The notes beneath the pieces are model-generated. The model did no database searches, was not told the DNA's origin, and saw nothing but the letters and a program-made list of their open reading frames with translations. Shown in pieces: positions 6,931-27,219 of a stretch of 63,464 nt of DNA. The stretch covers positions 1 to 63,464 of IMG/VR virus record IMGVR_UViG_3300042691_020231. One strand, written 5' to 3'. Origin of the DNA: a virus. The translations under genes were made by a program, and so were the position numbers. The number at the start of each line of letters is the position of its first letter. Position 1 is the stretch's first letter.

Positions 6931-7767
6931 TTAAAAATCTTGAATGTCATTCATTAAGTTCTTTAATCCTTTGTCTACAAAGTAATTGAAAATCTTACTT
7001 CTGTCTGCATTAACAGGTTTATTGTATTCTGCAAGAATAGCCTGCTCATACTCATTAGGTATGTATGACAGATCTACCAACATCTGGTTCCGATTCCAAT
7101 TAGATTCATATTCATCTGGAATCTTTCCATTTGAAGACCAAGTGTCCAGTTTCTTTGCGGAAAGTGGCTTCTGTCGCTTGCCATCTATAGCAAACACATC
7201 ATCGTCAGAAAGAACATTTGGAATACCGTCACCAGAATCACCGCGAACAATGTGTTCAAAAAGAAACTTATCGGGTGCATCGCATGTAATAAATCCCTTT
7301 TGATTTGGACTATACTGATTGATGTTTGGATATCTCATTAATTGCTTAAAATCTTTATCACCAGAAACAATCAGGATCTTTTCGTTGGCGTGATAATGCT
7401 TGCAGAGAGTGGCAATAATGTCATCAGCCTCACACCTTTCAATACGCATGGTTTTGTATGGCATATTCTCGGCAACTTCATTTCGAATCATAGTCAGTGT
7501 TTCGAAAATTTGTTTCCAATATACTTCATCTTTGGCTTGTGCCTTCTTGCGATTGTATTTGTAGTAGGGAAAGATTTCTTTTCGCCAATAATTACCAGCA
7601 TCTTGACAAATAACCAACTCACCGTATTCTTCGTGAAAACGAGTACGATAGTAGCGATAGGTGTTTAAAGTAATGTGACGAATCATTTCTTCGTTTACTT
7701 CTTCTGGACCCTTATACTGGGAAAAAATAGACGATAGAATGATTTGTGTATTGTCAATAAGTATCAT
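6931..7767 (-). CDS. rnh: RNase H / 5'-3' exonuclease (FEN family)
   Basis: In T4 this enzyme removes RNA primers and flaps from lagging-strand fragments. The 278 residues (T4 305) show the FEN layout: N-terminal MILIDNTQ with Asp5, VICQDAGNYWRKEIFPYYK (active-site Asp and basic helix), RCEADDIIATL and VSGDKDFKQL (acidic metal ligands), then RGDSGDGIPNVLS, the helix-three-turn-helix DNA-binding motif. It starts in an ATGA overlap with the 384-residue unknown gene upstream. It is intact. Confidence 0.93.
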   Translation of the reverse strand: MILIDNTQIILSSIFSQYKGPEEVNEEMIRHITLNTYRYYRTRFHEEYGELVICQDAGNYWRKEIFPYYKYNRKKAQAKDEVYWKQIFETLTMIRNEVAENMPYKTMRIERCEADDIIATLCKHYHANEKILIVSGDKDFKQLMRYPNINQYSPNQKGFITCDAPDKFLFEHIVRGDSGDGIPNVLSDDDVFAIDGKRQKPLSAKKLDTWSSNGKIPDEYESNWNRNQMLVDLSYIPNEYEQAILAEYNKPVNADRSKIFNYFVDKGLKNLMNDIQDF

Positions 7768-8918
7768 TTGATTACCTGTATGATTACGGTATTTTCATTG
7801 AATCTACCGTTGGGTTTAGTTTCTTTAGTCTTAACTGTTTCCCAGCCATTATTGATGGCTCTAACACCACCAATCATTCGCGGGAGAACACTCTTAGGAT
7901 CACGAAGTTTTTTCGTCTTAGACGCTGCTTCGTCGTAACCCAACAGGGTGGTTCCTTTGACTGTAAAACCATCAACCAAAGGAGATGCTTCGTACAACGT
8001 AAGTGTACGATATTTTGAGTTAAATGCAACCAATTTCTTTGCACCAATTATTTCTTTTGGATCGACAGATGTTATATTAAATTCGGTGCATTCTTTTTGA
8101 TATTTTAATTTAGCAATTAACTGCTCTGGTTTCTTTTTCTTTTTCTTTCGCGGTTTACGAATAGTTTTGGCAAACTGCGACTGTGCTTCAAAATGAACAA
8201 CCATTTCTTGATGAAACTCAAGAAACTTCTTCAATTTTGGTTTTGATAGCCAAGAATATGCTTGTTTTAGATCTTCGTCTTTTCCTTCAATTGCTTCCTG
8301 CAATTCCTTGATTCTCGGTTTAAAGGAATCAGCGATCATTTGTGCCTGCATTGACTTAATTTCTTTTTTCTTGATCCAGTCTGGCACATCAAAATCAAAC
8401 TTATGTGCCTTGGGTTGAGTTAGATATTCAACCAATTCATCAACTTTTATTTCCAATTCAGAAATATATTCGGAAACTTGTTCTTGAATTCTTTCTTGAA
8501 TAGAAACTTTTGGTCGTTCAACTACTGTTGGTAAAATTTTGGCAGCAGTACCATCTCCAATCAGATTTTTAATATGGTTTTCTACCAGTTTCTTTTTAAT
8601 ATCTGGCAAATTAACGCCAATATTTGAAACGCGACAATAGCCACCAGCACATCTAAAATCAAAACTGACAGTGGACGCATTGTTCACTGCTTCTTGATCT
8701 GCTTTTGAATACTTGTTTTTCTTTAGGTATTCCAGAGTGGCTTTGCGGTAGTCTCGTTCTGACCAATTATAATTATACCAATTAAGTGCTTTCTGGATTT
8801 GCCAGATAAGTTCACTTTCATCGGTAATATTCATTGCTGCAATATTTGGCTCTCCACCAAGCAGCACCGATTCTACTGTATCACCCTTACCAATCGACTT
8901 GTAGCGTTTTTTGCTCAT
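7764..8918 (-). CDS. Large phage-conserved protein of unknown function, 384 aa
   Basis: No function recognised. Visible features: an N-terminal 'ALNWYNYNWSERDYRK' segment (about 45-60), 'FDFRCAGGYCRVSN' (about 87-100), a helical, charged middle with likely coiled coil (about 140-240), a strongly basic patch RKPRKKKKKKPEQ (about 253-265), and a beta-rich C-terminal domain (YRTLTLYEASPL ... FTVKGTTLLGYDE). The basic patch suggests nucleic-acid contact. I recall the 'LNWYNY' and 'CAGGYCR' phrases from uncharacterised proteins of large marine T4-like phages. The ATG lacks a clear SD, and a sigma-70-like promoter places its transcription start about at the ATG. It lies between the methyltransferase-like gene and RNase H. 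Confidence 0.8.
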   Translation of the reverse strand: MSKKRYKSIGKGDTVESVLLGGEPNIAAMNITDESELIWQIQKALNWYNYNWSERDYRKATLEYLKKNKYSKADQEAVNNASTVSFDFRCAGGYCRVSNIGVNLPDIKKKLVENHIKNLIGDGTAAKILPTVVERPKVSIQERIQEQVSEYISELEIKVDELVEYLTQPKAHKFDFDVPDWIKKKEIKSMQAQMIADSFKPRIKELQEAIEGKDEDLKQAYSWLSKPKLKKFLEFHQEMVVHFEAQSQFAKTIRKPRKKKKKKPEQLIAKLKYQKECTEFNITSVDPKEIIGAKKLVAFNSKYRTLTLYEASPLVDGFTVKGTTLLGYDEAASKTKKLRDPKSVLPRMIGGVRAINNGWETVKTKETKPNGRFNENTVIIQVIK

Positions 8919-8924
8919 GCGTAT

Positions 8925-8952
8925 AGTGTATCGAATTCAAAAGCAAAGTCAA
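8925..8952 (-). promoter_or_regulatory. Sigma-70-like promoter for the 384-aa gene
   Basis: On the minus strand TTGACT (8952-8947), a 16-base spacer and TACACT (8930-8925) end 6 bases before the ATG at 8918. The start point would fall on or next to the ATG, implying a leaderless message, consistent with the missing SD. The -35 overlaps the stop of the methyltransferase-like gene. Confidence 0.45.
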
Positions 8953-10535
8953 GGTTTATAGAACACGAATACAGGCTCGTATTTGTGAAATCTACCGTTT
9001 ACTTTACAGTAATTTTTACACTTGGGTAAACCATCTTCACCTACTCTGTTTTGTCCTGGCATATTTTCTAATGCCATCTTGAGTGTATATTTGTATTCCA
9101 TTCCAAGAGATTCTAGAATTTTGCGAGAATCTTCTTCCAGAGGAAGGTAATCGCCGCTCACCAAAAGATCGGCAATATTCCATAAAAGGTATCTGTCGTG
9201 TTTTAAATACTTTACACAAGTTTCTAAAGTTGGACGGAGGAAACCATCGCGCCAAGAATCATATGAAGAAAACTTTTTGTATGATTGATTCTCATCTTCC
9301 GAATAGGCTTCTCTATTAAAATAAGGAGGAGAAGTAAATACTAAATCTAGTTTGCCTTCGTATTGTTGAAAATCTTCAAGTCCAGCAATAGTCTCAGAAC
9401 CAGAAGAAAACATATGGTAACTATTAATAGATGAGAAGAAAGAATTTGCTCTATATGTTTTTGTATTATAAAAATCCGCAATAGCATGATATTTAGAAGG
9501 ATAACCGTCGCATTGCCAATTTTCTGGATTAGGATCGGTTCCAACATAGTGAATATTCCTATCATCTCTTACAGACATTGCTCCTAAAATTCTTCCGGCC
9601 CAGCCGCTCGAAGGATCGTAAATAACAATACGATCTTGATTCTTACAGTGTTCGGTAAATCTTTCATACAAATACTTTGCAGTCATTGGGGGGAAATTGA
9701 CTGCGGGTTGGATATAACCAATACGGAAAGATGCAAACCCCGCGGGGAATACTCTTCCACCTTTTTTGTATAAACGAATGGCATACAGTTTATCGTCTGG
9801 CAAGTTTTCGTGATCGAATGTCGAATAATGTCTATATGACATTTGTGGCTTCCATTTTTCAAACTGCTCTTTTGTCAGTTGAAGAATTTTAGACTGCTCA
9901 AGTTGGAAGTAACTTGTATTGGCTCCTTCACGAAGTTCCACCTGTTCCAACATAAAATCATAACCAACAAATACCGAAGGATTCGTAAAGAATGCTTCCA
10001 TCCACTCATCCCCGCTGCCAACATCTACGATAGAATATTTCTTATCGTGCTTTATGGTGGACAAGGCGTGCTTGTAGAACGAGTCTCTACGCAGATGACG
10101 CATGGTGCCACGAATCATGCGTGGAAGGTATTTGTCGTCCGCAAACATATCATAAATTGAATGTCCAGTATCATTTGCAGAATAATTTATTCTGGTTTTA
10201 AACATATTTGAAAACCATTGATCGACTTCTACACCAATTCTGGATTTGTTTATAATGACATCATCGGGAACGGTTGACAGTTCATCTGAATGCGTGAATT
10301 CGTGTACTGGGTATTGACCCAATTGATTAAATTGATCTATGATATCTTTTTCGTCTTTTCCGGTTCGCGGAGGACAGCCGTATGTGTCCCACGAATTTAA
10401 TATCGCTTTACGCATTTTGACAACCCACTGCTCAAACTCTTTTGGAGTCATGGCAAGCAAGTCCTCAAAAAATACATTTACATCAAGATTGTTTATTACG
10501 TGGTCATTACGCTCATAAAAGGGTTTCTTTCCCAT
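8949..10535 (-). CDS. DNA methyltransferase-like protein (TSPPY motif)
   Basis: An AdoMet-dependent DNA amino-methyltransferase is suggested by YDPSSGWAGRILGA (about 306-319, motif I) and LVFTSPPYFNRE (about 399-410, the SPPY catalytic motif of N4-cytosine/N6-adenine enzymes). Motif I precedes motif IV. IHYVGTDPNPENW after motif I fits the acidic AdoMet ribose-binding loop. About 300 residues precede motif I and include another possible loop, SIVDVGSGDEW; they are not a standard methyltransferase part. I choose ATG 10535 (MGKKPFYERND), with GGAG 10 bases upstream, giving 528 residues; ATG 10652 would add 39 residues that shadow the GNAT gene. Target base and any further modification are unknown. 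Confidence 0.75.
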   Translation of the reverse strand: MGKKPFYERNDHVINNLDVNVFFEDLLAMTPKEFEQWVVKMRKAILNSWDTYGCPPRTGKDEKDIIDQFNQLGQYPVHEFTHSDELSTVPDDVIINKSRIGVEVDQWFSNMFKTRINYSANDTGHSIYDMFADDKYLPRMIRGTMRHLRRDSFYKHALSTIKHDKKYSIVDVGSGDEWMEAFFTNPSVFVGYDFMLEQVELREGANTSYFQLEQSKILQLTKEQFEKWKPQMSYRHYSTFDHENLPDDKLYAIRLYKKGGRVFPAGFASFRIGYIQPAVNFPPMTAKYLYERFTEHCKNQDRIVIYDPSSGWAGRILGAMSVRDDRNIHYVGTDPNPENWQCDGYPSKYHAIADFYNTKTYRANSFFSSINSYHMFSSGSETIAGLEDFQQYEGKLDLVFTSPPYFNREAYSEDENQSYKKFSSYDSWRDGFLRPTLETCVKYLKHDRYLLWNIADLLVSGDYLPLEEDSRKILESLGMEYKYTLKMALENMPGQNRVGEDGLPKCKNYCKVNGRFHKYEPVFVFYKP

Positions 10536-10948
10536 TTGTATATCACTCCGGGAAGTTGTCCCCCCATCCAAGATATCTGTCCCACTTCCTGAAACTGGTG
10601 CTTCAGGTAAAACTTTTTTGCTCTTTCGTTGTTTGCTCTGACTGACAGCCATACATTTGTTCCTGCATATTGTAAGAATTTATTCAAAACTCTAGACGCG
10701 CTTCCATCTCCCTGAGTTGCTGCCGCTATTTGATGCAGCATGGTTTCGCCTTTCGGGACAACCAAGTTACCTAACTTGACATCCTTTTTATATAGGCTAA
10801 ACGTGATTACAACATTATCTTGGAAAATGGTATTGTTTGCAACTATTTTCCTAGTGACATAATCTTGGCGTATATGTGGAAAATATTCCTTGTGTTGTTT
10901 GAATATCTCCATCACTTCTTTTAAATTGTCAATAGAAGCCAGTTTCAT
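10496..10948 (-). CDS. GNAT-fold acyltransferase-like protein
   Basis: The 150 residues show a GNAT-like pattern: a central strand (FSLYKKDVKLGNLVVPKGE), LHQIAAATQGDGSASRVLNK (about 80-99, in the acyl-CoA pyrophosphate loop region), VWLSVRANNERAKKFYLKHQF (typical strand and 'N..A..FY.k.GF' helix) and a final VIYKWER strand. The usual Q/RxxGxG/A loop is seen only in degenerate form (TQGDGSA). Its start makes an ATGA overlap with the gp46 stop, and its end overlaps the methyltransferase-like gene by 40 bases. Known phage GNAT proteins include Mom of phage Mu, which modifies adenine in DNA. Pairing with a DNA methyltransferase makes a DNA-modifying role attractive, but metabolite or protein acetylation is equally possible. 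Confidence 0.7.
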   Translation of the reverse strand: MKLASIDNLKEVMEIFKQHKEYFPHIRQDYVTRKIVANNTIFQDNVVITFSLYKKDVKLGNLVVPKGETMLHQIAAATQGDGSASRVLNKFLQYAGTNVWLSVRANNERAKKFYLKHQFQEVGQISWMGGQLPGVIYKWERNPFMSVMTT

Positions 10949-12648
10949 GCTATTTTACTGAAATTATTTCTCTTTACAAACACCAAATGATCTTCAAATT
11001 TATCCTGAAGAATTTCTTTAGACTTGTGGGAGATTACGTAAATATTGGTATTCTTATCAAGATCTTTGAGAATATTCAAGAACGCTTCCGTGGCAGAATC
11101 ATCCAAACTACCATCAAGAACCTCGTCAAAGATCAATAGATTGCAGTTCAACGAATTCTTTAATTGAGCAATATATCTCCAAGCAAACAACAGAGCCAAG
11201 TCGATCTTGCGTTTTTCGCCTTCGCTAAAACTATCGTATGTAAAGATATCGCGGTGACGACTCTTGATTGTTTCTTCGAAAGAATCGCTCAATTCAAATT
11301 GCACAAAAAAGTCCATCTTGCCAAGATAGTTGTTAATTACCTTGTTCATAATTGGAAGATAGTGCTTAATGATCTTGCTCTTAATCCCAGTGTCTTTTAG
11401 AAGAATAGCAGCAACAGAATAGTATTGCAAATCATCTGAGAGTTCTTGTCTTTGTTCTGTTTCTTTCTTACCATCATCTACAATACTTTCCAACTTGGCA
11501 TTTTCTGCGTCAAAATCCACGGTATTGTCTTTGTTCATTTCTTTTTGCAACTTACTAATATACTGATTGCAAGCAGAAATGGTATTATTCTTGCTTGAGA
11601 TTTCTTTCTCAAGAGCAAGTATCTTCTTTCCAACTTCTCTATTTTGACTTAATTTTTCCTGCAAGTCTGTTATGACTACATCTAGTTTTTGAACTTCATC
11701 TGTAAACTTGGACTTGGATTGTTCAAGATCTCCGATAATACTTGTCTTGTGTTTTTCAGAAAGCGTTTGCTTGCACAATGTGCATTCTGTGTTCTTCTGA
11801 TAGTATTCAATTTGCTTTTGAATCTTAGATGCTTGCTCTCTCATATGACTTTGACTATACGAGAGTTTGCCACATTCATCTTCGTCTGCATCCAGCCACT
11901 CTTTGTTTACTTCTTCAATTTGTTCTTGAATTTTTGCAATTTCTTTTTGTAAATCTTCTACCGTGGTCTGATTTTGTTCTATCTCCGAAACAATCTTATC
12001 TTTAGACTCTTTGCTTTTATCTTGTAGAACTTTAATGTGATTCTTTTGTGCTTTTGCTCGCTCCATCAGAATTGCAAGTCTATGCTCAATATCTTTGATG
12101 CTATCCTTTGCGGTTGCAATCTTACCCTTCAGCAGAGTGTTCATAACAGAGAACACATCTATATCCAACAGATATTCTACAATCGCTCTTCGCTCCGCGG
12201 CAGTTAAACGCATAAAAGGCACGTAGTTTGTGCTGCCCAAAATGACAACTTGGCAAAAAGACTTATGATTCATCTTTAGCACTTGTTCTTCTAACATCTT
12301 TTGGTAGTCTTTAGATTTAGAATCTTGGTTTACCAGATTACCGTCTTTATAGATTTCAAAAATCTTAGGTGCTAATCCACGAACTATTTTGTAATTAGCA
12401 TTGCCGATGCCAAATTCAACTTCAACCCTACAGTCTTTTTGATTGATACTATTTGCTAATTGTGGAATGTTGATGTTTCTATATGGTTTACCAAATAATA
12501 CAAAAGAAATAGCATCAAGAAAGGTTGTCTTTCCTGCACCATTTTCACCACTGATAAGAGTAGTTTTGTTTTTTGTAAGATTCAGTTCCGTAAAGTTATT
12601 TCCAGTCGATAGGAAATTCTTCCAGCGAATCTTTGTAAATGTAATCAT
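10945..12648 (-). CDS. 46: Recombination nuclease subunit gp46 (Rad50/SbcC-like)
   Basis: gp46 is the ATPase of the gp46/47 complex (Rad50-Mre11 type) that resects DNA ends for recombination-dependent replication. The 567 residues (T4 560) have Walker A GENGAGKTT (34-42), two coiled-coil arms around a CTLC zinc hook (289-292), the ABC signature-like FSEGEKRKIDLALL, Walker B LLIFDEVLD and the H-loop YVISHKS. It lies two genes after gp47 and starts 3 bases past a basic-protein gene. It is intact. Confidence 0.97.
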   Translation of the reverse strand: MITFTKIRWKNFLSTGNNFTELNLTKNKTTLISGENGAGKTTFLDAISFVLFGKPYRNINIPQLANSINQKDCRVEVEFGIGNANYKIVRGLAPKIFEIYKDGNLVNQDSKSKDYQKMLEEQVLKMNHKSFCQVVILGSTNYVPFMRLTAAERRAIVEYLLDIDVFSVMNTLLKGKIATAKDSIKDIEHRLAILMERAKAQKNHIKVLQDKSKESKDKIVSEIEQNQTTVEDLQKEIAKIQEQIEEVNKEWLDADEDECGKLSYSQSHMREQASKIQKQIEYYQKNTECTLCKQTLSEKHKTSIIGDLEQSKSKFTDEVQKLDVVITDLQEKLSQNREVGKKILALEKEISSKNNTISACNQYISKLQKEMNKDNTVDFDAENAKLESIVDDGKKETEQRQELSDDLQYYSVAAILLKDTGIKSKIIKHYLPIMNKVINNYLGKMDFFVQFELSDSFEETIKSRHRDIFTYDSFSEGEKRKIDLALLFAWRYIAQLKNSLNCNLLIFDEVLDGSLDDSATEAFLNILKDLDKNTNIYVISHKSKEILQDKFEDHLVFVKRNNFSKIA

Positions 12649-12651
12649 AAT

Positions 12652-13086
12652 TTAATGTTTGTGGGGTTTTATTCCACCAATTGTTTTTCTTCTACGCAAA
12701 GAAATACGTCTTTTTCTGAGTGCTCTTCCCCGTTTACTTTTTGATTTTCTTGCTGCTCGTCTTGCTCTTCTTCGCATTTTTGCGAGTTCTGAACTTTTTC
12801 TACGAACACACCGTCTTTGAATTTTCTTTTCGCCGGGTTTACATCTAAATATTACTTTTCTTTTGCCACCCCGAATTACTACTTTACGTTTTGCAACACC
12901 TTCGTCCAATAATATTTCTAAAGTAGAATTGGTAAATTCTTCTATTAATTCTTCAAAAGAATCATATACAACAAAACTATTTTGAGATAAATCAAAATCA
13001 AAATAATTTTCTTCTAGAAATAGTTCTACCATTCCCGTTTCTTCATCGGTATCAACCGTAATAATATTTTCTACTATAGTAATCAT
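12652..13086 (-). CDS. Small protein with acidic N-half and very basic C-tail
   Basis: I choose ATG 13086 (MITIVENIITVDTDEE), which makes an ATGA overlap with the gene upstream; 14 codons further up is only a shadow. The product has 144 residues. The first 75 are acidic (VELFLEENYFDFDLSQ); then 'FRCKPGEKKIQRRCVRRKSSE' gives a short two-Cys motif, followed by about 45 residues dense in Arg and Lys. I recall similar 'CkPGyk...CvrM' plus basic tail modules from short proteins of marine T4-like phages. A nucleic-acid-binding or DNA-condensing role is an inference from charge. It sits between gp47 and gp46. Confidence 0.7.
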   Translation of the reverse strand: MITIVENIITVDTDEETGMVELFLEENYFDFDLSQNSFVVYDSFEELIEEFTNSTLEILLDEGVAKRKVVIRGGKRKVIFRCKPGEKKIQRRCVRRKSSELAKMRRRARRAARKSKSKRGRALRKRRISLRRRKTIGGIKPHKH

Positions 13087-13652
13087 ACTTGTATTGTATT
13101 TATACTGTTTACACCTTCGGTAAACCAAAATGGCGTATTACCGGTCTTCCATTTTGCAAACCTAGATTTTTCGTGAATATAATATTGACGATACGCTTCA
13201 ACCGCATCTTGGTTTTTGTACTGATCCGGCATTGCTTGTGCAAATTGAGTCAGGGATACCCCGCGCAATTTAGTTGGGGTATTCACGAGAGTTTGCCGTA
13301 CAAGATTTGTATAAGTATGATCTTTATTGTATCTTGTCTTATATTGATGTAGCAGTTCACTGGTATGTACCCACAACCATTGGTAGTTTGCAATACTTTC
13401 CCTTGTCCAAATTGTGCAAGGATGATTAACCATAGTGCAACGCAAAAATGCAGGAACACCAATCAAATTTGGTGCTTCATATGTGCTGAACTTCCTACCA
13501 TTCTTTGCAACTCTAGTAATTTGTACACCATCAACTACATGATGTGCGGTTGACATTAATTGGCAAGACTCAACAATCATTTTCACAACGTGCTTATCGC
13601 ACATCATAATTGCTGCATATTGAGGATCGTTATCTAGTACAAATATGTTCAT
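13083..13652 (-). CDS. Conserved phage protein of unknown function, 189 aa
   Basis: The N-terminal 'MNIFVLDNDPQYAAIMMCDK' followed by HVVKMIVESCQLMSTAHH, and the middle 'MVNHPCTIWTRESIANYQWL', are phrases I remember from uncharacterised proteins of cyanophages and other large phages, sometimes loosely annotated as pyrimidine-dimer glycosylase-like. The Cys, His, Asp and Glu residues in these two blocks could form an active or metal site. I see no convincing DenV similarity. Both ends are coupled (ATGA) to neighbours, inside the 47-46 recombination block, which suggests a DNA metabolism role. Confidence 0.75.
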   Translation of the reverse strand: MNIFVLDNDPQYAAIMMCDKHVVKMIVESCQLMSTAHHVVDGVQITRVAKNGRKFSTYEAPNLIGVPAFLRCTMVNHPCTIWTRESIANYQWLWVHTSELLHQYKTRYNKDHTYTNLVRQTLVNTPTKLRGVSLTQFAQAMPDQYKNQDAVEAYRQYYIHEKSRFAKWKTGNTPFWFTEGVNSINTIQV

Positions 13653-22515: not shown

Positions 22516-25500
22516 TTATTGGGGTTCTACAGGACTTATTTTTATTTGTAAATCCGTTGTTGCAAATGCTGGCATATCAAAATTTTCATTATCATTATCT
22601 CCGCAACCAAATAAAGTTAGGTTTTTACCAAGTGGTGGTAGCACATATTCTCCATTAATTTTAGGAGTTCTGCACATATAAGCATATGTTGCATTACCAT
22701 CACCAGAATTGCACAATTCATACTGCAAAACACCATCCGGTGGTAGAGGGAATACCGAATATATTTCGTGTAAAGGTCTACTGGTATGCAAACAACTATG
22801 TGAATAATATGGATGATGACATGTTTGATTTATTTCAATTTGTTCTTGTGCAGTTGTTATATCTTTTTTATTTGTTCTTCCATATCCAGGTGGGTTCTTT
22901 TTATAAAGATGATCATTTGGTAATTTTTCAACCAATCCCCACTTCCAAGCCAAATAACCTTCTACTTTTTGTATATTTTCGGGAAGTAAATTTCCATTGT
23001 GAACTATTATTTCATATAATTGAAATTTAAGTTTATTAAAACCATCAGTTTCTTGACCCAACGACCATAGTGAAGAAACTCCTGATTTATAAACACTTAC
23101 TGAATTTGGTGAAAAATTTATTCTTGTACCATTTAAAGAATTTTCTAAAGTAGGTTCAGGATATTGATTTCCGGTTACTCTATTAAATAGAGTTTTGGTT
23201 ACCGATAATATATTGCCTTCATTTACGTTTGGAGATCCTGCATTGTTTGGTGTTACTCTAAGATTACCTACCGATTCATTTCCAAAAATAGCACCAGAAG
23301 AGTTTAATCCAGGTAATGGTTTATATGCAACAAATATTGACCAAGTACTATTTACACCACTTGATATTGGGCTAAATACTCCCTGAGATATTAAACCATG
23401 ATCTAAACCATCAAATTCTATAACGCTTTTATTGTTTTGTCCATTAATTATGAATTTTGGTTTAGCATTAGAATTTAAAGGTATTGAATCTCTTACATTG
23501 GTAGAAAAATATGTATTTTTGTTTTTTAATTTAGTAACAGAAGACGAAGCATCAATATCAACATATTTTGTGTCCGAAGCGTCATACCATAAAGTTAATC
23601 CCGATTCACCAAGTAAATCTGGTTCCCAAAGTTGTCTAAATTGAATTGTATCGGCTTGAGGTATTTTGAATATACTGTAATAAATATCCCAGGCCTGGTC
23701 ACCGTCTGCTACCCATTTTACATTCTCCAATCGTCCTGGTTTTGAATCTGTATAACCAACAAATTTATCATAAGGTTTACACCAATTAGGTCTAGTATCG
23801 GCCGGTTCACCGGTGTTACTATCTGGTCCTGAACTGTTTTGATTTCTCCACTCTTCACATGTTAATGTACATGATGAATTTGGTTCACCACAACCAAAAA
23901 ACTCGGCAAGTTCTACACAACACGGACTCCATTCAACTTGAATACAATGTGGTTCCAGGTCAGAAACAATTGCACAACAAGAAGGATCACTACAACCCGG
24001 ATTTGTGGAACAAGTAACACAGTCTTGACTATCAGGATTACCACAAATTGGTGTTGGACAATTACAAGCCGCCAAGTTTTGTGCCCTAAAAGCACACTGA
24101 CTATCCCAACTAATACAACAAAGTGGATCAGCACTACAAACTGCTTGCTCGCACGCGCTGTTTACTGGACATCCGGGTTCAAAACTAGTAACACAACAAG
24201 CACTTTCATAACATTCTGGATGTGGTGTACAGCAAAATCTAGAATCGTAACATTTATCATTTCCAAAACAAGGTTTTTTGCAATTAGGATGCAGATAAGT
24301 GTTAGATTTACTGGCAATATTTGGTTTATAAATTCCGTAAGGTAATCCTAAATTTCCTCCAGACAAATTTACAGTTTCTTCTAAATTGTTTTGTTTCATT
24401 GGTGAAGAAATAAACAATTCAGATGTAATTGGCAAAATTGGATTTAATGTATAGTTTGAGTCTATAAATTCTTTTGCATGTGGTGCAAAATTTATATAAG
24501 AGTCGGGAACTGGAGTGGTTTCAAATATAGATTGAGTCCATTCATCCGTTTTTGTTGTCAATAAATATTGTATTCTTTGTGCTGTTGTGCTTCTATTTGA
24601 ATTTTTAAAATCTTCTAAATCCAGCAAAAAATGATTAAGTGTTGACCCACCCTGGGATTCAAATCCATACCATTCATTCCATAAAAAACTTGAACCACAA
24701 TTTGCACTATCACTAAAACTACCAAATGGTCCCGCGTATTTTACGCTATTTTGAGGACCAATAAATTTCATGCTAGTAAATCTTTTGTCTTTTCTTTGCC
24801 ATTCTAAAAGTGTATGTGCGCCAGATGGTGTTGTGTCGCCGTTTCTGAAAAAGTAATCAATTAAACCCATATCTCTTGCCCAATACGGGTTTTGGTTTAT
24901 GTCAGAAAACCATCGACCGCACAATTCTAAAGGAGATTTATTATTAAATGTAGAATATCCAAATGGTTCTATCCATTCCGTGTTATATGCTTTTACTGGT
25001 TGTATTATGATGTCGGCAAACCAACTTAAACCAGAATATTTTATTGGAAAACTATCTTCTACATCCAAATATGCTTCTAAGCAATCAAAATCTCCTCCTT
25101 GTGCCGTTGGTTTGCACTCATCACATATAGCTTCGGCTAAAGCCACACACGCACCGTCAAAGACTGTTCTGCAAAATGTATCTCCAGTGCCGGGTGTTAG
25201 TTCTCTCAGTCCGGTTGTGTATTCAAATATTTTTGGTAAACAACCCGGTACATATGCATTTGGTTCATTATTGGAATAAGAACCGTTCCAATTTGCTCCC
25301 AACCCATTACCAAGTTGTCCTACGCTATTATCACCATAACGCCAAAGTAATTCAACATATCTGCCAGTTATCCCATCTAGATCATTTACATCTTGTATAC
25401 CCGGCAAAGTTTGAAAAATAGTAAAATTGTCACCACAACTAATGTGTGTATTATAAAAGCCATTTGGATCTCTTGCTAAAAAATTACCATTTGTAAGAGA

Positions 25501-27219
25501 TCCACAATCTAATTTTGTCATGACCGAAAAATTTACACTATATGGTGATATTCTTCTGTCCCCAACATTCGTTCCGGGACCATTGTAATAACAAGTAACA
25601 ACGGTATGAGTTTTCCCACAACCCACAGATTCAAATGAGCGATTTTCCGCCGGCGGAAGTATCTCAACGGGAGATAGTTCATTTTGTTCTCCGTCTGTAT
25701 TCGGTGGTGTGTCTGCGCCAATTTGTCCTTCTAGATTTCTTCCCCACATCCAAAGATTTGTATTTGATGGTGTTGGTAGTGCAGCCACTCCATGAAGAAA
25801 TGCCAATAAAGCAGTATGATAACCACCACACTCAATTCTAGAACCATAATAAAATCTTGGAATATTTGATCCCGGTCTTGGATCAATATAATTTGGATCT
25901 GATGTGAATGTTACTTTTTGTGGTGTATTAAATTGTATAGATGAAGAATTTACACCAACTTGTCCATATTCATTGTTTCCCCAACAATATACACCTTCAT
26001 TTTGTGTAGAAAAAACACCTATTGCAGCACTATGATATAAACCACAACTTATGGCTTTTGCTGTTAAAGAAGTAATTTTCTTAGGAGTTAAAACATTTTC
26101 AGAACCAGAATAACCTAATTGACCAAACAAATTACTACCCCAACTCCAAACTTGTCCTTCTGTAAATTCACCACCAAAACGAATCGCAATAGTATGTTCC
26201 AATCCAGAAGCAACAGTATTAAAAGATTCACCAACCTTAACTGGTTCAGATTTGTCTAGTATATCACCTATTCCGAGTTGTCCTTTATTGTTTTTTCCCC
26301 ACGCCCATAAAGATCCATCTCTTTTTATTGCAAAACTACTAAAAGAACCACAAGCAACTGATGCCCATTCTCTACTTGTTCCTACTTGAACTGGAAGAGA
26401 AGCAAAACCGCCTGTAGTTCCATCTCCCAATTGTCCAAAACTATTGTCTCCCCATGCCCATAAAGATCCATCTTTTTTTATTGCAAGTGTGTGTTTTTCA
26501 CCAGAAGATATTTGTTTTTTTGGTCTAGAGGGTTCAATACCATCATTTTTAAATTGTAGTGGTACGTCATTAACTCCGTAGGCTCCGGGGCAATAACCAA
26601 GTTCTATGCATTTATTTTTATTATCGTGTTTTAATTTATAAAATTTCTTTTCTCTTGGACCACCAGCAGTTTCTGGAATATTGATTTTTTCTGTAGTAAT
26701 TTTTGTAGTACTTACAATATCAAGAGTATTAAAATTGTTGAAAGTGTTTACATGCTTACTGACTGTTTTTATTGGTGCAACATATATGCCAACAATTTCA
26801 TAATCCAGATCAAATGAAGTTTGATCGCCCACTTCTGAATCTTGTCCTTCTTGTGGATTTCTCAGTGTTACTTTATAAGTTTGGTTTCTCGAAATAGAGA
26901 ATGTTTGTCTTTGTCCGGGTGGAAAATACTTAAAATATTCTTTTGTACGAGTGCCGTCGCTCAAAACCAATCTTGGCACAATTTCATTAACACTAATTGA
27001 ATCGTCCCCAGTTCTAAATCGGTTTATTGATACATGACTAAACGGTTGACAAGGAACATCAAAATTTGCGGATATTGCAGGAAAAAGATATGATGCTTTT
27101 CCAGTAAATTCAAATTTTATGTTTTCTGGTAATTGTTCTTCAGGTAAATCGGGACAGTCGTTATAGTTTTCGCAACTACTACAACCGCAGCATTGTTTTG
27201 TTGTAACATTAGTTAGCAT
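22516..27219 (-). CDS. Giant accessory structural protein: RCC1 propeller, Cys-rich repeats, LamG-like domain
   Basis: A 1567-residue protein inserted between portal and prohead genes. N-terminal CCGCSSC cluster (10-16) and beta-rich region; then (about 238-650) RCC1-type repeats: WAWGDNSFGQLG, WAWGKNNKGQLG, WSWGSNLFGQLG, YCWGNNEYGQVG, WMWGRNLEGQIG, a degenerate unit, and WRYGDNSVGQLG, enough for a seven-bladed beta-propeller. About 963-1116 is packed with Cys in repeated 'CC...W...C' units (VCSADPLCCISWDSQC; IQVEWSPCCVELAEFFGC). About 1205-1435 (LTLWYDASDTKYVDID ... LAWKWGLVEKLPNDH) resembles LamG/concanavalin-like glycan-binding domains. No signal peptide or membrane segment. Likely a virion surface adhesin or head decoration; partner and ligand unknown. 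RCC1 and LamG calls come from visible repeats; role is inferred. Confidence 0.85.
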   Translation of the reverse strand: MLTNVTTKQCCGCSSCENYNDCPDLPEEQLPENIKFEFTGKASYLFPAISANFDVPCQPFSHVSINRFRTGDDSISVNEIVPRLVLSDGTRTKEYFKYFPPGQRQTFSISRNQTYKVTLRNPQEGQDSEVGDQTSFDLDYEIVGIYVAPIKTVSKHVNTFNNFNTLDIVSTTKITTEKINIPETAGGPREKKFYKLKHDNKNKCIELGYCPGAYGVNDVPLQFKNDGIEPSRPKKQISSGEKHTLAIKKDGSLWAWGDNSFGQLGDGTTGGFASLPVQVGTSREWASVACGSFSSFAIKRDGSLWAWGKNNKGQLGIGDILDKSEPVKVGESFNTVASGLEHTIAIRFGGEFTEGQVWSWGSNLFGQLGYSGSENVLTPKKITSLTAKAISCGLYHSAAIGVFSTQNEGVYCWGNNEYGQVGVNSSSIQFNTPQKVTFTSDPNYIDPRPGSNIPRFYYGSRIECGGYHTALLAFLHGVAALPTPSNTNLWMWGRNLEGQIGADTPPNTDGEQNELSPVEILPPAENRSFESVGCGKTHTVVTCYYNGPGTNVGDRRISPYSVNFSVMTKLDCGSLTNGNFLARDPNGFYNTHISCGDNFTIFQTLPGIQDVNDLDGITGRYVELLWRYGDNSVGQLGNGLGANWNGSYSNNEPNAYVPGCLPKIFEYTTGLRELTPGTGDTFCRTVFDGACVALAEAICDECKPTAQGGDFDCLEAYLDVEDSFPIKYSGLSWFADIIIQPVKAYNTEWIEPFGYSTFNNKSPLELCGRWFSDINQNPYWARDMGLIDYFFRNGDTTPSGAHTLLEWQRKDKRFTSMKFIGPQNSVKYAGPFGSFSDSANCGSSFLWNEWYGFESQGGSTLNHFLLDLEDFKNSNRSTTAQRIQYLLTTKTDEWTQSIFETTPVPDSYINFAPHAKEFIDSNYTLNPILPITSELFISSPMKQNNLEETVNLSGGNLGLPYGIYKPNIASKSNTYLHPNCKKPCFGNDKCYDSRFCCTPHPECYESACCVTSFEPGCPVNSACEQAVCSADPLCCISWDSQCAFRAQNLAACNCPTPICGNPDSQDCVTCSTNPGCSDPSCCAIVSDLEPHCIQVEWSPCCVELAEFFGCGEPNSSCTLTCEEWRNQNSSGPDSNTGEPADTRPNWCKPYDKFVGYTDSKPGRLENVKWVADGDQAWDIYYSIFKIPQADTIQFRQLWEPDLLGESGLTLWYDASDTKYVDIDASSSVTKLKNKNTYFSTNVRDSIPLNSNAKPKFIINGQNNKSVIEFDGLDHGLISQGVFSPISSGVNSTWSIFVAYKPLPGLNSSGAIFGNESVGNLRVTPNNAGSPNVNEGNILSVTKTLFNRVTGNQYPEPTLENSLNGTRINFSPNSVSVYKSGVSSLWSLGQETDGFNKLKFQLYEIIVHNGNLLPENIQKVEGYLAWKWGLVEKLPNDHLYKKNPPGYGRTNKKDITTAQEQIEINQTCHHPYYSHSCLHTSRPLHEIYSVFPLPPDGVLQYELCNSGDGNATYAYMCRTPKINGEYVLPPLGKNLTLFGCGDNDNENFDMPAFATTDLQIKISPVEPQ

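Follow-up and report, generated by a model that had tools for sequence, protein, structure and literature searches.

A methyltransferase-fold protein with alternating partner enzymes, among them a GNAT acyltransferase, in T4-like phages: a candidate DNA-modification locus

Within the replication gene block of an uncultured T4-like phage, a GNAT acyltransferase is encoded next to a methyltransferase-fold protein (hereafter MT), the conservation of which exceeds that of several core replication proteins and which adjoins, across related phages, a slot in which PLP enzymes, GNATs, glutamine synthetases and sugar-transfer enzymes alternate. The interpretation that we favor, with moderate confidence, is that MT modifies an exocyclic amine of the phage DNA and that the partner encoded next to it tailors the product, which in this phage would amount to acylation by the GNAT. 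The original prediction for this locus was a DNA-modification cassette of three proteins with a putative two-step addition of methyl and acyl groups, in which the GNAT was likened to Mu Mom; the GNAT-MT pair and the DNA-related contexts of the MT relatives uphold the cassette in part, and the Mom analogy and the third protein had to be abandoned.

The locus and its neighbors

The analyzed sequence (the window) is an entire 63 kb virus record. The major capsid protein is about 53% identical to the nearest sequences, those of Methylophilales phage Melnitz and of cyanophages; the clade is aquatic, and the close relatives are all metagenomic fragments, with no isolate among them. The relevant features, all on the minus strand, are:

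6931–7767 (−): T4-type RNase H, right neighbor (Pfam)
7764–8918 (−): 384-aa conserved phage protein, phrog_11903, a neighbor outside the cassette (PHROGs; isolate survey)
8949–10535 (−; longest ORF to 10652): MT, methyltransferase-fold protein, hub of the locus, likely 528 aa (PF01555, PHROGs, PADLOC, alignment, AF2/Foldseek)
9318–9335 (−): catalytic motif IV TSPPYF of MT, residues 401–406 of the 528-aa form, invariant (alignment of homologs)
9591–9617 (−): SAM-binding motif I DPSSGWAGR of MT, residues 307–315 of the 528-aa form (alignment of homologs)
10496–10948 (−): GNAT acyltransferase of 150 aa, an optional partner of MT (PF00583, AF2, IMG/VR linkage)
10546–10549 (−): GGAG, likely Shine-Dalgarno sequence for the MT start at 10535 (sequence)
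10945–12648 (−): gp46, SbcC-like recombination nuclease subunit, fixed left neighbor of the slot (Pfam; gene order in relatives)

All three ORFs described between gp46 and RNase H are present in the predicted order, i.e., gp46, GNAT, MT, the 384-aa protein and RNase H. An ATGA overlap joins the gp46 and GNAT genes, and the genes for the 384-aa protein and RNase H overlap by 4 nt. Many IMG/VR contigs share this gene order, with near homologs of GNAT, MT and the 384-aa protein, so that this run of three genes is more than a chance arrangement. Collection scans were seeded by short peptides and 80 loci were kept; the resulting frequencies are indicative.

The 384-aa protein, which was proposed as the third component of the cassette, belongs to phrog_11903 (E 5e-72) and does contain the noted basic patch of Lys/Arg residues. 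Its family is found in 42 isolate records and in none of the 24 isolates with an MT match; in phage phiM12, it adjoins RNase H and a glycosyltransferase, and in Cr30, heptose-sugar and glycosyltransferase genes. Given this placement in phages without MT, a role as a third enzyme was rejected, and we judge the protein to be separable from MT and to lie outside the modification cassette.

Three other genes of the window deserve mention. A pyrimidine-dimer glycosylase-like gene (13083–13652, −; PF03013, E 1.4e-7; phrog_624) is located between gp47 and gp46 and overlaps a gene for a 158-aa protein (12652–13128, −) with a very Arg/Lys-rich C-terminus, the sole match of which is phrog_33445. The structural region encodes a 1567-aa protein (22516–27219, −) with RCC1-like repeats according to PHROGs.

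The methyltransferase-fold protein

Homology of MT to its relatives begins near residue 40 of the longest ORF, and the ATG at 10535 is preceded, 10 nt upstream, by GGAG; thus, judging from the sequence, the annotated start (10652) is likely too early, with the real start at 10535 yielding a protein of 528 aa. The match to PF01555 (N6_N4_Mtase; E 2e-5, 25.1 bits) is just under the gathering score of 26.7, which is exceeded by a distant relative, MT' (28.3 bits); MT also matches phrog_498, phrog_67, phrog_12517 and the PADLOC model MTase_II. As stated in the original prediction, AdoMet and SPPY motifs are present: an alignment of 21 homologs shows little or no variation in either DPSSGWAGR or TSPPYF. 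The combination of a (S/T/N/D)PP(Y/F/W) catalytic motif with SAM motif I is that of N6/N4 amino-methyltransferases. The AF2 model is of moderate quality (pLDDT 71, with the N-terminal half poorly modeled) and displays a class I SAM fold, for which the best Foldseek matches are RNA and small-molecule methyltransferases, Trm11 being the first. A match to an acp-transferase at rank 33 was set aside as evidence because generic Rossmann methyltransferases dominate the list. The N-terminal domain of 290 residues has no Pfam match and presumably binds DNA. An alignment search of the genome-contig collection with MT gave no match, and PDB sequence searches with MT and with the PLP enzyme returned nothing useful.

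Across 62 loci fetched with the PLP enzyme, a set chosen because one fetched with MT is biased toward conserved MT, the median identity to the window is 66% for MT, compared with 44% for gp46, 50% for gp47, 55% for gp45 and 50% for RNase H. For an ordinary restriction-escape methyltransferase, greater variation would be anticipated, and MT varies less. The dN/dS values (Nei-Gojobori) are 0.02–0.05 for MT and 0.03–0.15 for the part of the GNAT gene that does not overlap MT, so that both genes are maintained by selection.

The GNAT protein and its linkage to MT

The assignment of the 150-aa protein as GNAT-like is borne out by a match to PF00583 (E 3e-4, 21.4 bits) above the gathering score of 20.7 and by an AF2 model (pLDDT 90) with the GNAT fold and 126 PDB matches at E ≤ 0.001, those listed being GNATs. 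The invariant residues are FPHxRxDY and N107, R109, A110, F113 and Y114. The nearest folds are RimI, Ard1, Naa50, Naa60, PaiA and the spermidine and serotonin acetyltransferases, all of which acylate amines, and the closest sequences belong to N-terminal and polyamine acetyltransferases; a RimI model is matched weakly. Kinship with Mom was rejected: the protein shows no match at E ≤ 1 to the Mom families PF25680 and phrog_1384, and hhalign against Mu Mom gives a probability of 0.2% over 10 aligned columns; as a control, Mu Mom itself matches PF25680 at 2e-75. When related contigs were searched for Mom, neither the search nor its controls returned anything. Two proteins of the GNAT family, used as queries against sequenced phages, gave no match.

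A search of the IMG/VR collection with the GNAT-family alignment returned 44 contigs. MT lies within two genes of GNAT in all 42 that have readable flanks, the other two ending at the contig edge, and most of the GNAT loci occupy the position between gp46 and MT. The tree of 77 MT proteins shows four switches of the 5' partner and places GNAT in three separate subclades. It therefore appears, from the sequences, that GNAT was gained beside MT in at least three subclades and again beside a distant MT (31% identity). The latter belongs to an overlapping operon, MT'-PLP'-GNAT' (L197, L198 and L201), which sits between gp43 and the next replication gene, UvsX/RecA-like in our reading; another contig (L196) contains a distant MT, an Asp/Asn-hydroxylase (PF05118), GNAT and then gp62. 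The proposed genetic coupling holds across independent lineages. One outcome that had been named in advance as evidence against the cassette was a GNAT structure of the protein or small-molecule acetyltransferase type combined with a GNAT gene that is not coupled to MT elsewhere; the structure resembles such enzymes, yet the link holds.

The partner slot beside MT

The content of the slot was surveyed in 41 non-redundant loci that were fetched by MT alone and have both flanks, with GNATs overlapping MT assigned from six-frame profile matches. GNAT is present in 16 loci, the PLP enzyme in 13, glutamine synthetase in 12 and an epimerase in one, in various combinations, and two loci have none; at least one partner is directly beside MT in 39 of the 41. 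PLP and GNAT never occur together in the MT clade of the window. The loci with GNAT are a minority, most holding the PLP enzyme or another partner instead, and hence MT does not need GNAT, which is an optional component. The glutamine synthetase is GlnII-like (E 7e-113); in two contigs (L030, 9605–11035; L040, 9599–11056), a glutamine synthetase with a thioredoxin/glutaredoxin-like N-terminal domain is encoded directly 3' of MT. Further partners are glycosyltransferases and a sugar epimerase: in some contigs, PLP and MT are separated by a gene for a 330-aa glycosyltransferase-like protein or for a second protein that resembles transferases, and some have a galE-like epimerase gene 3' of MT. 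The glycosyltransferase assignments are weak (the best is PF13524, E 4e-4). Other genes that enter the slot between gp46 and MT in some contigs are those for endonuclease VII, SNase-like proteins and phosphoesterases.

Several individual loci show additional features. In a T4-like phage contig (L044, 39–1317), two genes, the first for an MjaI-type restriction endonuclease (PF09568, E 1e-42) and the second for an SPPY methyltransferase, directly precede MT. In an uncultured phage of 485 kb (L206, 2784–6473), the frame that contains the MT relative is 1230 residues long and includes large insertions resembling homing-endonuclease or intein segments. A SET-domain protein (PF00856, E 7e-13) is encoded near gp46 in some of the PLP-type phages (L278, 2431–3465, and about 16 other loci).

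The PLP enzyme and DNA-modification contexts

The PLP enzyme (fold type II) matches PALP and phrog_7093 and retains the PLP lysine. Its associations place MT relatives in DNA-modification settings, in agreement with the original prediction. In Erythrobacter phage ZS04, a single protein of 812 aa consists of a ParB-like domain, one half of an MTase, the PLP domain and the other MTase half with SCPPY; in Microcystis phage Mae-JY30, ParB, MTase and PLP are encoded by adjacent genes; and in one bacterial genome, the same three genes, of which MTase and PLP overlap as ATGA, are located beside a terminase-like gene. A Bauldia MAG encodes a Mrr nuclease-helicase, a small protein, an MT::PLP fusion with GWGGR and TSPPYF, and a 330-aa protein. 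This island, in which the fusion is found near resolvase and integrase-like genes (L286, 145–7736), is a candidate for a new restriction-like system. The glycosyltransferase-like 330-aa gene adjoins PLP both in the Bauldia island and in phage contigs. Among the MT relatives, matches to DNA methylase, Eco57I and MTase_II models are observed, and a bacterial one is identified by PADLOC as MTase_II and mad2. The MT-PLP pair is thus connected with DNA modification by the ParB-MTase-PLP fusion and operons and by the fusion in the Mrr island. For GNAT, a DNA role is suggested by the slot and the operon that it shares with PLP, the fused DNA contexts being those of PLP and not of GNAT.

Among about 780 sampled bacterial genomes, the PLP domain is present in one besides the Bauldia MAG, and a search of plasmids for the MT-PLP fusion found none. 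A few contigs have PLP without MT; in L210 (5974–8541), the PLP gene is located between gp47 and gp46, with no MT within 12.7 kb.

Proposed function and alternative explanations

The genes and their folds, linkage, fusions and purifying selection are direct observations, from which we infer the following scheme. MT would use SAM, belong to the type of DNA methyltransferase that targets exocyclic amines and act within the replication gene set, with DNA as the predicted substrate in this phage, and a second enzyme encoded beside it would tailor the product. In this phage, the tailoring step would be acylation by GNAT of an amine that belongs to, or lies close to, the modified base; the role would fall in most relatives to a PLP fold-II enzyme or another partner, sometimes together with glutamine synthetase, a glycosyltransferase or a sugar epimerase. 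The choice of base, the transferred group and the order of the steps are likewise predicted, and the modification likely serves to shield the phage from restriction and other host defenses. A rather improbable variant of this scheme is that MT transfers to the base amine not a methyl but the 3-amino-3-carboxypropyl group of SAM, and that the partners work on this side chain. GNAT would then acylate the side-chain amine, the PLP enzyme would act on the alpha-amino acid, glutamine synthetase would amidate the carboxylate, the Asp/Asn-hydroxylase would oxidize the side chain, and glycosyltransferases would extend it; speculatively, every partner type found is compatible with such a substrate. If true, this would represent modular amino-acid-based DNA hypermodification in phages and, in the form of the fusion, in a bacterial restriction-like system.

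An unlikely, though serious, alternative to the proposed tailoring of MT-modified DNA is that MT is an ordinary orphan N4C/N6A DNA methyltransferase and that GNAT is unrelated, Rac/RimI-like cargo for host takeover in a variable slot. The nuclease and phosphoesterase genes that enter the same slot, as well as the closeness of GNAT to N-terminal and polyamine acetyltransferases, with a fold that fits protein or small-molecule acetylation, are compatible with this possibility, and phage-encoded GNATs that modify the host RNA polymerase are known (PMC7824862, PMC7552054). Cargo, however, would be expected elsewhere too, yet MT is found within two genes at every GNAT locus that could be judged; moreover, GNAT also accompanies the distant MT in a rearranged operon at another genomic site (gp43-UvsX), and the slot favors amine- and sugar-acting enzymes. 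The notion that PLP, GNAT and glutamine synthetase serve the metabolism of the infected cell, through nitrogen and amino-acid supply, and lie near a conserved gene by chance appears very improbable: the GlnII-like glutamine synthetase would suit it, but unrelated genomes encode MTases with PLP inserted into them or attached to them, and the partner directly adjoins MT in nearly all of the MT-fetched loci.

The two remaining alternatives concern the substrates of the individual enzymes. MT could modify tRNA, rRNA or phage mRNA, with the partners tailoring RNA: Trm11, the top Foldseek match, combines an N-terminal RNA-binding module with an amino-methyltransferase in the same motif order, and TSPPYF is compatible with any exocyclic-amine enzyme. 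Considering that relatives of MT are fused to ParB, flanked by a Mrr nuclease-helicase and matched by DNA methylase, Eco57I and MTase_II models, we regard RNA as an improbable target. Direct action of GNAT on DNA adenine in the manner of Mom, independent of MT, would be in line with a GNAT fold in a phage, but is scarcely credible given the negative results of the comparison with the Mom families and Mu Mom and the absence of a link between Mom and this MT.

Comparison with known systems

DNA hypermodification is a main route by which phages evade restriction and CRISPR, and new chemistries are still emerging. The DNA decoration in this clade is probably modular and of a kind not yet described; a search of the open-licence literature found no description of a PLP- or GNAT-coupled DNA methyltransferase. 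The PLP version is present in cultured phages (vB_EliS_R6L and ZS04 of Erythrobacter and Mae-JY30 of Microcystis), which makes the question open to direct testing now.

MT shares TSPPY, SAM motif I and the class I fold with DNA amino-methyltransferases (PF01555, phrog_498/67, PADLOC MTase_II) but differs from them in the form of motif I (DPxxGWxGR), the position of the SAM motif before the catalytic motif, the Pfam-unmatched N-terminal domain and the partner enzymes encoded alongside. In T4, the alpha-glucosyltransferase gene is found in the 46-47-55 region, i.e., a DNA-modifying gene lies inside the equivalent replication block; the likeness is one of position only, the fold and chemistry being unlike those of GNAT and MT. 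A gene of the thymidylate synthase/dCMP hydroxymethylase family, as used in T4, SP8 and the thymidine hypermodification routes, was found in none of 11 related contigs, which are fragments. Mu Mom (PF25680, phrog_1384) resembles GNAT in its fold, phage origin and suspected DNA role, but no sequence relation was found, and Mom works without such an MT. Other small phage-encoded GNATs, such as Rac, act on proteins of the host and, unlike the GNAT of the window, are not coupled to a methyltransferase gene (PMC7552054, PMC7824862).

In concept, the locus resembles CmoX/CmoY of Synechococcus phage S-B43, the carboxymethylcytosine hypermodification system in which a methyltransferase-fold enzyme sets a handle and a second enzyme, which varies between phages, decorates it (PMC12783734). 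CmoA, the Cx-SAM synthase, was above the cut-off in none of 10 related contigs, again fragments, with one weak match. CmoX is a C5 enzyme with SPPC (PMC12783734), whereas MT lacks this C5-cytosine motif and has SPPYF, indicative of an exocyclic amine.
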